The notes under the pieces: generated by a model | The model's database searches: none | Seen by the model: only the letters and a program-made list of their open reading frames with translations | What the model was told of the DNA's origin: nothing | Shown here: positions 8,699-26,275 of the stretch, in pieces | How positions within the stretch are numbered: position 1 is the stretch's first letter | Layout of the letters: each line of letters opens with the position of its first letter | Assembly (NCBI GenBank): GCA_014155875.1 | Contig: JACEFZ010017895.1 | Span: 281,501-345,500, forward strand | Reading direction: 5' to 3' | DNA length: 64,000 bases | Source of the DNA: Cepaea nemoralis | Lineage: Eukaryota; Mollusca; Gastropoda; Stylommatophora; Helicidae | Position numbers and translations under genes: made by a program

Positions 8699-8819
8699 CG
8701 TGTAAGTGTAACCGTGAATTAGAGCATTGATCGGGTCCACTTCGTGGTCCCAAAAACCCAAAATTGAGATGCCTTCTACAGACGGGTGGCTGAAGTACAG
8801 TCGGAGCGCAGCCTCATAC
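8699..8819 (-). CDS. GH10-like gene, exon 11 in window (beta-8, GFWD)
   Basis: The 121-nt exon has acceptor ACTCATTCAG and donor GTGAGG. After one base it encodes YEAALRLYFSHPSVEGISIL, then GFWDHEVDPINALIHGYTYT. This is the last helix and strand of the barrel, matching animal GH10 proteins nearly word for word up to GFWD. Active members continue with a Trp-Arg pair lining the -1 subsite (HWRP-like). Here the equivalent is EVDP, so that pair is also missing. The intron downstream (1423-8698) holds the 61-bp minisatellite and RTE copy 1. Confidence 0.96.
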
Positions 8820-8865
8820 CTGAATGAGTCAAACACAGCTACATAACATTGATATTCACAATCAC

Positions 8866-9030
8866 ACACACACACACACACACACACACACACACACACA
8901 CACACACACACACACATACACGCACGTACAAACATATATATATATATATATATATATATATATATATATATATATATATATATATATATATATATATATA
9001 TATATATATGTGTGTGTGTGTGTGTGTGTT
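8866..9030. repeat. Compound microsatellite (CA)n-(TA)n-(TG)n
   Basis: (CA)n at about 8866-8917, (TA)n at about 8935-9009 and (TG)n at 9009-9028. It lies about 50 bp upstream of the acceptor of exon 8699-8819, inside the intron. Confidence 0.97.
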
Positions 9031-9041
9031 ATTGTTAAACT

Positions 9042-9287
9042 GCCGGCTTCGTGGCTTAGAGGTTAGCGACTTCTCTCCGTAATCTCGTATACTCTCGTAG
9101 GTAACGTGATGACGGTGAGAATCAGCAGTGGTTCGAATCGCATCGGTAACTTACGGGGTATGTGAGCCGGCCGCTCAGAAAGCAATGGCAAACTACTGAG
9201 CGTAATCTTGCCAAGAAATCAACATACAGCTGAAAGATGCTGGTGTTGGCAGCGATGTCCTGTAAAGGATATGCAAAAAAAACAAAC
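9042..9287 (+). mobile_element. SINE family A, full copy with 11-bp target duplication
   Basis: The head has a tRNA-like A box (GTGGCTTAGAGGTTAGCG) and B box (GTGGTTCGAATCGC). The body has CAATGGCAAACTACTGAGCG and TGCTGGTGTTGGCAGCGATG, and the tail is GTCCTGTAAAGGATATGCAA plus A-rich. It is flanked by ATTGTTAAACT at 9031-9041 and 9288-9298, a target-site duplication from L1/RTE-type priming. This is the reference copy of the family in the window. Confidence 0.9.
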
Positions 9288-9410
9288 ATTGTTAAACTAT
9301 AGATGTGAAGTGGTAGTAGCGTAGTGGCTAGATAATTATGTTATTGTTAAACTATAGACGTGAAGTACCGATAGCGTAGTGGCTAGATAATTATGTTATT
9401 GTCAAACTAT
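9288..9410. repeat. 55-bp direct repeats carrying an A-box-like motif
   Basis: ATTGTYAAACTAT starts at 9288, 9343 and 9398 (period 55). Between them TAGCGTAGTGGCTAGATAAT recurs, the same A-box-like string that opens SINE family B at 9427. Confidence 0.85.
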
Positions 9411-9695
9411 ATAATTGCAGTGGTGTTAGCGTAGTGGCCAAACGCTTGTCTGTCGGCTTAATGGCGGTGGGTTCGAATCACCATAGGAACAGATTCTTTT
9501 CTAAGCATCACAGAATGCTCAAGTCGATCCAGCATAAAATGGGTACCAGGAAATGTTTTGGGAAGAAGAGGCGGCTGCTGTGAGCTGACCACAACAGCCA
9601 CCAAGTGACGATTGGTCTGTGAATATATGGGTTTAGTACCATGTGCTCAATGCGCCTTAAGGCGTGGAAAAGGAACTTTTACTTGGTTTTAAACT
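9411..9695 (+). mobile_element. SINE family B copy
   Basis: A box TAGCGTAGTGGCC at 9427-9439 and B box GGTTCGAATC at 9470-9479. The body has AAATGGGTACCAGGAAATGT, CACCAAGTGACGATTGGTCT and ATGTGCTCAATGCGCCTTAA. Related copies at 17.4, 47.6 and 55.5 kb share head and body, which supports a tRNA-derived SINE family. Confidence 0.85.
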
Positions 9696-9881
9696 ACAGA
9701 TTCTATTAAGATAAAATAAATTATTGTAATGCTAAACTAATTATCCTCTCTAGTTAAATAACTATTATGTTATTAAATATAAACCAAACATTGTTGCAGG
9801 CCACAATAACTTTTAACCTCATTCAAGAAAAAGATTCTGTTGCCAATGAATGCAATGACAATGTGACGAAGAAAGCCTCAC

Positions 9882-9973
9882 CAGTCTGCTTTGTCGTGAT
9901 CATCGCTAGTTCCTACAGCTAATTGAGTTATCCAGAGCGGAACTCCTGCGGCTGCCAGATTGTCTAGACGGGC
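9882..9973 (-). CDS. GH10-like gene, exon 10 in window (nucleophile Glu replaced by Gln)
   Basis: The 92-nt exon has acceptor TCTTCAAG and donor GTGAGG. It encodes ARLDNLAAAGVPLWITQLAV, then GTSDDHDKAD, and leaves TG, completed to Trp. This is the beta-7 strand of the GH10 barrel, where active enzymes have L-P-[IL]-W-[IV]-T-E-L-D. The Glu is the retaining nucleophile; here the codon is CAA (Gln), and the following Asp of ELD is Ala. The change is one transversion from GAA, the same type as at the acid/base site. Confidence 0.95.
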
Positions 9974-9989
9974 CTTGAAGACACAGATG

Positions 9990-24066: not shown

Positions 24067-24174
24067 AGTAGTATACACATGCACACCCATAATGATTTCT
24101 GGGCCATGAAGATATTAACTTCTATTTCCATTAACAACATGAGGGATAATAACACACTGTAAACCCTTAAACAG

Positions 24175-24288
24175 AAAAGAAAGAAAGAAAGAAAGAAAGA
24201 AAGAAAGAAAGAAAGAAAGAAAGAAAGAAAGAAAGAAAGAAAGAAAGAAAGAAAGAAAGAAAGAAAGAAAGAAAGAAAGAAAGAAAGG
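24175..24288. repeat. (GAAA)n microsatellite
   Basis: About 28 GAAA units, 120 bp from exon 24405-24542 on its donor side. Confidence 0.98.
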
Positions 24289-24404
24289 AGTATGAGGTGC
24301 AGATTATATGTAATGTATGAAATACGGTGAAAGAAACTTCTCGTGAAACACAATTTTACAAGCAAGGCAAGCAAATGTAAAACATGTGATTGAAAATCCC
24401 TTAC

Positions 24405-24542
24405 TTTCCTTTGGTGATGCCAGTTAGGTAACTGATGCGGGCAGTCACGGCATCTTTCAGTGCTTCTGTATTTAAACCTGACACCCATGTGGGTTCGGTT
24501 CCCGGAATAGCTGAGAATAATGACTCGCCGCGTACCTTCACA
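24405..24542 (-). CDS. GH10-like gene, exon 7 in window (RGH position altered)
   Basis: The 138-nt exon has acceptor ACATTTCAG and donor GTAAGG. It reads VKVRGESLFSAIPGTEPTWV, then SGLNTEALKDAVTARISYL and TGITKG, with AA left for the next codon. GH10 enzymes have VRGHxLxWxxxxPxWV here; the His contacts the -1 subsite. In this protein it is Glu (RGES) and the Trp that follows is lost, while the fold-determining PxWV and the basic helix remain. The downstream intron spans 17234-24404 and contains the 42-bp minisatellite and the large non-LTR element at 19.7-23.6 kb. Confidence 0.93.
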
Positions 24543-24617
24543 CTGAAATGTGACCCAAAGACAGATCAATGACAATGCTGAAGATTAAAACACACTTAGC
24601 AATATGTCTAATTGACT

Positions 24618-25456
24618 AATTGGGGAGCTTCTCACTCCATGCAGCATATGCAAACGCTATTGATTGTAATGTGCTAGAATCATCCTTGCAACAGGAAATA
24701 AATAGTGTAGTTAAATGGAGTCATGCAAACCGCATGCAATTTAACATTTCTAAATCAACATCTATGTTAATAGCAACCAGGCAAAGACTTCACACTCTAA
24801 ACTCACGGAGAACTCTTCAACTGCACATCGATAGTACGCCTGTAGAAAGTGTAACCGAGCACAAGGCACTGGGTCTTATCATAGATCAAAATCTATCCTT
24901 TAATTCCCATGTTCATGCTCTAGTTAAACAAATAGCCAACAAAGTATACCAACTTGCCAAAATTAAAAATTTCCTTGACGAGAACATAGGAAAGATATTC
25001 TATACTTCCGGCATACAAACACATATTGATTATTGCTTCGCAATCTGGGATGGATACTCAAAATCAAAAATAAAACACCTTCATTCACTCCAGAAAAGGG
25101 CAGTGCGTTTAATTAATGGTGAACAGCTTACCGACAGTTTTAACCTACATAATCGTCTTCAGTTACTGGCATTCCACAAACGCCTACTTTTTAATAAGGC
25201 TAAACTAATTAACATAATCCTATTTCAAAAGCTCCCTTTGGCAACTGTTAAAATATAATGCAAGACATAGCAAACGACTAAATATACTTCATGTCCCTAA
25301 ACCTAGGATAGACTTATATAAAACAAACTTAGCATACTCTGCCGTTAAGTTGTGGAACAATCTTCCACAAGACATCAAAGACACCACCAATCATTATACA
25401 TACAGTCGCAACTTGTTTAAAGACTACCTCAGTACAGACTACATGTCCCCCTAAAA
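24618..25456 (+). mobile_element. Non-LTR RT C-terminal fragment (Jockey/CR1-like), better preserved copy
   Basis: One open frame, 24620-25258, reads LESSLQQEINSVVKWSHANR, TEHKALGLIIDQNLSFNSHV, KIKNFLDENIGKIFYTSGIQ and LHSLQKRAVRLINGEQL. After a shift it continues KPRIDLYKTNLAYSAVKLWN at 25300-25360. It corresponds to the sequence after the YADD box and matches the 5463-6302 fragment. Both begin at nearly the same codon, so both inserts were 5'-truncated at a similar point or copied from one source. No endonuclease or catalytic RT core is present. Confidence 0.87.
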
Positions 25457-25459
25457 ACA

Positions 25460-26065
25460 AAAACAAAAACACGCAGCTCGGAGGGAGAATTGTGAAGGAA
25501 GAGTCTGGTGCTTTTGCGTTGATCACAAGTAGCCTGACTATAGAAGTCATGGCAGTAAGTAAAGCAATAACATGGCTCGAGATACAGACATTCACTATGG
25601 ACATGTATCCTTAGTGACTCAATGAGTATGCTCAGGAAGATAGAGAAGGGGTGGATCCGAAGAGAGTGGTTGCTGTCTCTGGAGCGGTCTCCGCTGGCAA
25701 AGAATAGTTTCATTTCCGTGCCAGGGCATACGGGTGTACAAGGAAATGAGCAGGCTGACAGGCTTGCAGGTAAGGCTACCGTGGAAGGCGGACGATCCAT
25801 GGACTAGGCAGACATTCCGAATGCTCTAAGAGAAGTAAGTCGTTTACGAGAACCAAGTGATGACTGTGAATCTACAACCATGGTCACGCTGCAAGAACAG
25901 CAAGTTAAAAGAGGTGTGGCCAAACAGAACAGTACGCACGAGCCAAAGAAGATTAATAAACCAACACAGAACTCGTGTCTTTAGCGGCTACACGCTGCGG
26001 GATTTGCTGAGGAAGGGATCCGAGCACTTATGGACTGGATGGTTCAATGTGCAGTAAGGATGATC
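25460..26065 (+). mobile_element. RNase H-domain fragment of a non-LTR element
   Basis: Broken frames give GRIVKEESGAFALITSSLTI (25482), then FISVPGHTGVQGNEQADRLA (25708-25767), the conserved RNase H C-terminal motif GHxGxxGNExAD of Jockey/I-type elements, and then the basic tail with ACG/AGCCAAAG. Stops at several points. The family resembles the 27.2-28.3 kb fragment, which has the same GNEQADRLAG box. It is not clearly part of the RT fragment just upstream. Confidence 0.8.
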
Positions 26066-26219
26066 TGTCGACTAACTAACTAACTAAATAGTAACTATCC
26101 GTGTTCTTACAGATCGACAATTTATTTAGAAGACTGAAAACTGAATGTCATGTATCGATTGTTATCGGTTCGATATTAGCTAATCAATCAAGCAATAAAC
26201 AAGATATTTACAGTCATAC

Positions 26220-26275
26220 CCATTGCTGATAAGCTCATCTGTGGCAGCAGCAGCTCTGGAAAAGTCTGGGTTACT
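26220..26275 (-). CDS. GH10-like gene, exon 6 in window
   Basis: The 56-nt exon runs from acceptor TTTCCCCAG to donor GTATGA. It encodes SNPDFSRAAAATDELISN and leaves GG, completed by the next exon to Gly. The stretch NPDFSRA....DELISNG followed by VKVRG is the alpha-2/beta-3 block of animal GH10 proteins (usually P-D-[YF]-x-R-A...N-G-[IL]-x-V-R-G-H). Entry phase 0 agrees with the second frame of the preceding, frame-shifted exon. Confidence 0.85.

Follow-up and report, generated by a model that had tools for sequence, protein, structure and literature searches.

A putative GH10 pseudoenzyme clade of land snails carrying glutamine in place of both catalytic glutamates

A stretch of 64,000 nucleotides of the Cepaea nemoralis genome (GenBank assembly GCA_014155875.1, contig JACEFZ010017895.1, positions 281,501 to 345,500; hereafter the window) carries, on its minus strand, exons of a GH10 gene in which both catalytic glutamates (Glu) are replaced by glutamine (Gln). 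Based on the relatives of this gene in three genomes, we conclude that it appears to belong to a conserved land-snail clade of GH10 pseudoenzymes, a term used here for the loss of catalytic residues in genes found in three genomes and, for two copies, under purifying selection. The reading we consider probable is that both Glu were lost once in this clade, that it has been maintained by purifying selection in at least these two copies, and that its product is likely a predicted-secreted, non-hydrolytic sugar binder. An earlier note on the window, made from its letters alone, had suggested that the gene was kept for a protein without catalytic activity that is joined to a carbohydrate-binding module (CBM), and both the relatives sharing Gln and the selection estimate given below argue for it.

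GH10 membership and replaced catalytic residues

The joined 285 amino acids of the window exons matched the Pfam GH10 profile with an E value of 2e-18 and 67.1 bits (cut-off 22.1), and the solved GH10 xylanase 7d88 with 1.3e-44. P0008, a complete protein record of 842 amino acids from Bradybaena (83% identity over a query of 561 amino acids), scored 76.2 bits against the same profile. A TIM barrel was predicted with confidence for P0008, in a fold comparison that mainly covered residues 214-513.

The window gene has Gln both at the acid/base position (NNE) and at the nucleophile position (ITE), while the cleft histidine (His) of VRGH is changed to Glu and that of QSH to arginine (Arg). In exon 6, YQW stands at a site that is YKW in most Glu-intact relatives. 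All motifs named in the earlier note (NNQLLHG, WITQLAV, VRGES, IQSRF and GFWDHEVDP) were found on the minus strand, with VRGE at 24524-24535 within VRGES and GFWD at 8747-8758 within GFWDHEVDP. One G-to-C change per Glu codon, as proposed there, fits the Glu-intact paralogues of the same genome, copy D having GAA at both sites and copy G having GAG and GAA. The same note had also taken EVDP in place of the WR pair as a sign of inactivation, and this we rule out: WR after GFWD occurred in three of the 29 rows covering this column, all unnamed database sequences (P0005, P0006 and P0007), and in none of the named gastropod proteins, whether Glu-intact or not.

Gene structure

Tracing the exons with homologues gave a gene of 19 exons that runs from 353745 to 248483 on the contig (C16588), about 105 kb. 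The window holds exons 3-13, with exons 1-2 and 14-19 outside it; the span treated in the earlier note, 8699-26275, corresponds to exons 7-12. The exons in the window are as follows, all on the minus strand:

60947..61042, minus strand: exon 3, part of CBM4_9 (GT/AG sites and match to P0008)
55236..55392, minus strand: exon 4, end of the CBM and start of the barrel region
52119..52164, minus strand: exon 5, start of the GH10 region
48181..48337, minus strand: exon 6, GH10 barrel with YQW; near 48220, one base inserted compared with copy B
26220..26275, minus strand: exon 7, NPDFSRAAAATDELISNG
24405..24542, minus strand: exon 8, VRGES for VRGH and LFS for the usual FW
17062..17233, minus strand: exon 9, acid/base site, VVNNQ for DVNNE
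17206..17208, minus strand: acid/base codon CAA (Gln)
16327..16437, minus strand: exon 10, IQSRF (16363-16377) for QSH
9882..9973, minus strand: exon 11, nucleophile site, WITQLAV for ITELD
9923..9925, minus strand: nucleophile codon CAA (Gln)
8699..8819, minus strand: exon 12, ILGFWDHEVDP, with leucine (Leu) for the tryptophan (Trp) preceding GFWD
1206..1422, minus strand: exon 13, end of the GH10 unit and its beta extension

The claim that splice sites are kept stands for the GT/AG sites and the in-frame joins; the extra base within exon 6 is the exception and had been missed. Exons 14-19 (contig positions 269880-248483) run into a PCSK9-type domain and align to relatives bearing it. The predicted product would thus combine a signal-like start, CBM4_9, GH10 and a PCSK9-type C-terminal domain as in P0008, where CBM4_9 is present by profile and the PCSK9-type domain matches PF18459 (78.1 bits) and PF18463 (36.7 bits).

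Copies in the genome and relatives in other species

A GH10 profile search of the genome gave no matches at E ≤ 0.001, probably because the profile meets single exons, and a protein query against the same genome gave at least 42 matches at E ≤ 10. The copies A (the window gene), B, C, E and H have Gln at both sites. Copy F has Gln at the nucleophile site, its acid/base exon being absent from the contig or not found; it differs from H at two places within their 66-codon overlap, and the two may be a single gene. Copies D and G have Glu at both sites, and Gln and Glu-intact copies share contigs (A, B and C with D; F with G). The QSH position varies among the copies, with QSR in A and B and HSW in C, E, F and H.

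Outside this genome, NNQ together with ITQ was found in P0008 of Bradybaena and in the Candidula fragments P0009 and P0010, and NNQ with ITG, i.e., Gln then glycine (Gly), in the Candidula fragment P0002. Relatives sharing NNQ and ITQ, which the earlier note had named as a check, thus occur in the same genome, in Bradybaena and in Candidula. Gastropod relatives outside the clade keep Glu wherever the sites are covered. The case that the earlier note had set against itself, a lone decaying pseudogene among intact relatives, is refuted by these Gln copies in three genomes. A third protein search returned 17 proteins, eight of them new, of which only P0036, a Glu-intact, G-type fragment from Candidula, is gastropod by name.

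The Glu-intact gastropod set comprises copies D and G, the Bradybaena records 375 and 379, and proteins of Lymnaea, Bulinus, Biomphalaria and Aplysia. It shares with the Gln clade the CBM4_9, GH10 and PCSK9-type domains (read in part only for D and G) and, in the full-length records listed, GFWDH or GVWDH/GIWDH without WR, and differs in keeping NE and TE/SE. The PCSK9-type C-terminal domain was observed in the Glu-intact proteins P0013-P0025, and two Bulinus proteins among these (P0014 and P0024) are labelled anti-sigma-I factor RsgI6 in public records. An expansion of GH10 has been reported in apple snails in the part of PMC13336756 available to us, and the available part of PMC10295696, from the snail mucus and egg proteome literature, does not mention GH10 for Achatina.

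A probable single loss of both glutamates

A tree of 36 rows and 267 columns, from which the 14 landmark columns were left out, placed the Gln rows in one clade with support 100/100, recovered in all of 200 bootstrap trees. One Glu-to-Gln change is therefore enough to explain all Gln rows. Gln occupies the acid/base site in all nine clade rows that cover it, and Glu does so in 26 of 26 other covering rows; at the nucleophile site, the figures are nine of ten clade rows (P0002 having Gly) and 25 of 25 other rows. The former His of VRGH is likewise Glu in 9/9 clade rows covering that column.

The rows nearest to the clade are copy G and Bradybaena 379, joined with support 92/90, below the starred level. 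Both keep the two Glu and read WIV instead of WDV and ESH instead of QSH. Bradybaena 379 lacks the YKW lysine (Lys), the WDV aspartate (Asp) and the QSH Gln, and copy G lacks the latter two, its Lys exon lying outside the data. The YKW Lys is also lost in P0036. In copy G (loci L021, L048, L049 and L050), both Glu are kept and the motifs read WIVINE, SELS and ESH. From its sequence, copy G may be an intermediate stage and is possibly also impaired.

Purifying selection and the evidence against it

The ratio of nonsynonymous to synonymous substitution rates (dN/dS) was measured among paralogues of the window genome only, with exons 1-2 of B outside the comparison. Between A and its nearest copy B it was 0.32 (bootstrap 0.23-0.43) over 714 codons, with a Fisher p of 1.3e-12, in line with the value well below 1 that the earlier note had asked of orthologues. 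By part, the GH10 exons gave 0.32 (0.18-0.55), exons 3-4 (81 codons) 0.09 (0-0.38), exon 13 0.30 (0.10-0.79) and the PCSK9-type part 0.36 (0.23-0.56). Divergence between A and B was 14.6% in alignable intron beside 11 exons and 6.0% in the exons.

Several results weigh against a retained sugar-binding protein. The six Gln copies, compared two by two, gave dN/dS values of 0.29-0.81 in 14 of 15 pairs and 1.00 for B-C, and in exons 8-9 the six values between the A/B and C/E/H subgroups were 0.71-1.16, none different from 1; from these values, selection on some of the copies may have relaxed. The Gln clade shows somewhat less protein identity to Bradybaena (A-P0008, 80.4%, 76.2-84.7) than the Glu-intact types do (D-P0012, 83.0%, 78.5-87.2; G-P0011, 87.0%, 83.0-91.0), with overlapping intervals and with a D value that is depressed by a stretch read out of frame. 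In exon 6, the window copy carries the one-base frameshift relative to B, which is either an assembly error or a null allele, and exons 12 and 18 of copy B also appear frameshifted. According to the part of PMC8022989 available to us, the C. nemoralis draft was built from 23x PacBio reads and polished with PacBio and Illumina data; residual assembly indels are thus possible, and the frameshifts remain although the draft was polished with short reads. Finally, the barrel has lost further cleft positions (the VRGH His, the FW Trp, the YKW Lys, the QSH His and the Trp before GFWD), which we take to be sugar contacts; this casts doubt on xylan binding by the barrel and leaves the CBM as the more probable site of sugar binding.

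These frameshifts and the dN/dS values of up to 1.00, or about 1 in exons 8-9, would also suit a relaxed family drifting to pseudogenes, in which catalysis was lost once and copies persist through birth and death, with no particular role. We find this unlikely, although it is the alternative that survives best, given the low A-B ratio and its p value, the complete Bradybaena protein record, the retention of Gln in 9/9 and 9/10 clade rows, and a frameshift in exon 9 of the Glu-intact copy D too. The low ratio for A-B and the values near 1 in exons 8-9 together indicate that A and B are constrained and that the cleft-bearing exons changed fast at the subgroup split. Exons 8-9, with the cleft motifs, show the greatest protein difference between subgroups, and this fast change may have come about either by selection or by relaxation.

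Proposed function and alternative explanations

In the reading we favour, a land-snail sugar binder derived from GH10, both catalytic Glu would have been replaced in one change, almost always by Gln, and hydrolysis would have been lost. The protein would be secreted, judging from its signal-like start, and would bind plant or microbial beta-glycans mainly through its CBM, whereas the barrel and the PCSK9-type domain may form a platform contacting a partner protein or glycan. Duplicates would then differ in the targets recognised by the remodelled cleft face. A further idea, plausible to us and held tentatively, is that of an expanding lectin-like or decoy family from a double Glu-to-Gln GH10, whose old catalytic face is diversifying toward new partners, as a GH10 counterpart of the GH18 chitolectins.

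The GH18 chitolectins with Glu-to-Gln changes are the best parallel, by analogy. In the part of PMC1945033 available to us, they are described as TIM-barrel relatives in which the catalytic Glu is changed to Gln, likely lectins beside active paralogues. Like IDGF, Ym1 and the oyster chitinase-like protein, the snail clade consists of TIM-barrel hydrolase kin with Glu-to-Gln changes beside paralogues that keep Glu, but it belongs to GH10, has both Glu replaced, carries CBM4_9 and a PCSK9-type domain, and is known from sequence. Searches of open-licence papers, at the level of listings, gave no report of a GH10 pseudoenzyme.

CbXyn10C E140Q/E248Q (PDB 5ofk) and XynA E182A/E280A (7d89) are also double mutants of GH10 xylanases, although made in the laboratory from active enzymes; going by the entry titles, we take the mutated residues to be the catalytic pair and 5ofk to hold xyloheptaose. 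A substrate trap like 5ofk was considered as the principal explanation and rejected, since most other cleft positions are changed too.

A different role for the dead GH10 would be that of a decoy in the snail gut, which titrates plant xylanase inhibitors (XIP/TAXI type) and thereby shields the Glu-intact paralogues. The shared contigs and the near-consecutive numbers of the Bradybaena records 375, 378 and 379 are compatible with such a pairing, as are the strong differences between subgroups in exons 8-9 and the presence of the GH10-XIP complex 1ta3 among the fold matches. XIP contacts the catalytic Glu residues of GH10, and these are gone along with most cleft residues, which makes this role improbable in our view. 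A precedent is PsXLP1 of Phytophthora sojae, which, in the part of PMC13224840 available to us, is an inactive paralogue protecting the active hydrolase PsXEG1; PsXEG1, however, is a GH12 enzyme and P. sojae a plant pathogen, and the inhibitor partner of the snail clade is hypothetical.

That the clade retained or altered its enzyme activity, with other chemistry in the remodelled cleft, could be argued from the barrel predicted to be intact and from the new Glu at the VRGH His in 9/9 covering clade rows, but there is no carboxylate pair at both catalytic positions and the QSH position varies (QSR versus HSW), so we regard this as very unlikely. A sequencing or assembly artefact at both Glu codons, conceivable in a draft genome with apparent indels, is dismissed because the protein records of two other species, and other copies within the same genome, show Gln as well.

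These genes score well above the GH10 cut-off, so counts of carbohydrate-active enzymes in snails could overstate xylan digestion. They also offer an ordered series from hydrolase to non-enzyme, i.e., the Glu-intact D type, the G type with both Glu and an eroded cleft, and the double-Gln clade, for which the Glu-intact paralogues on shared contigs are controls.

Other features of the window

Between exons 3 and 4 lies an array of a 32-base unit (55904-58828, 2.9 kb, about 93 copies). Intron 8 contains a 43-base unit repeated 18 times (18184-18959) and a plus-strand open frame of 358 codons (22211-23287), presumably encoding a long interspersed nuclear element (LINE) reverse transcriptase-like protein. 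Two pairs of 3.1-3.3 kb repeats (29168-32290 and 34719-37838, 99.8% identity; 38416-41735 and 41732-45060, 99.0%) may reflect recent duplications, either segmental or of mobile elements. A tandem array with a 61-base unit occupies 4002-5460, with a second, more diverged block at 6393-6960, and a head-to-tail duplication of 1.07 kb is found at 12768-13836 and 13835-14901 (96.4%).

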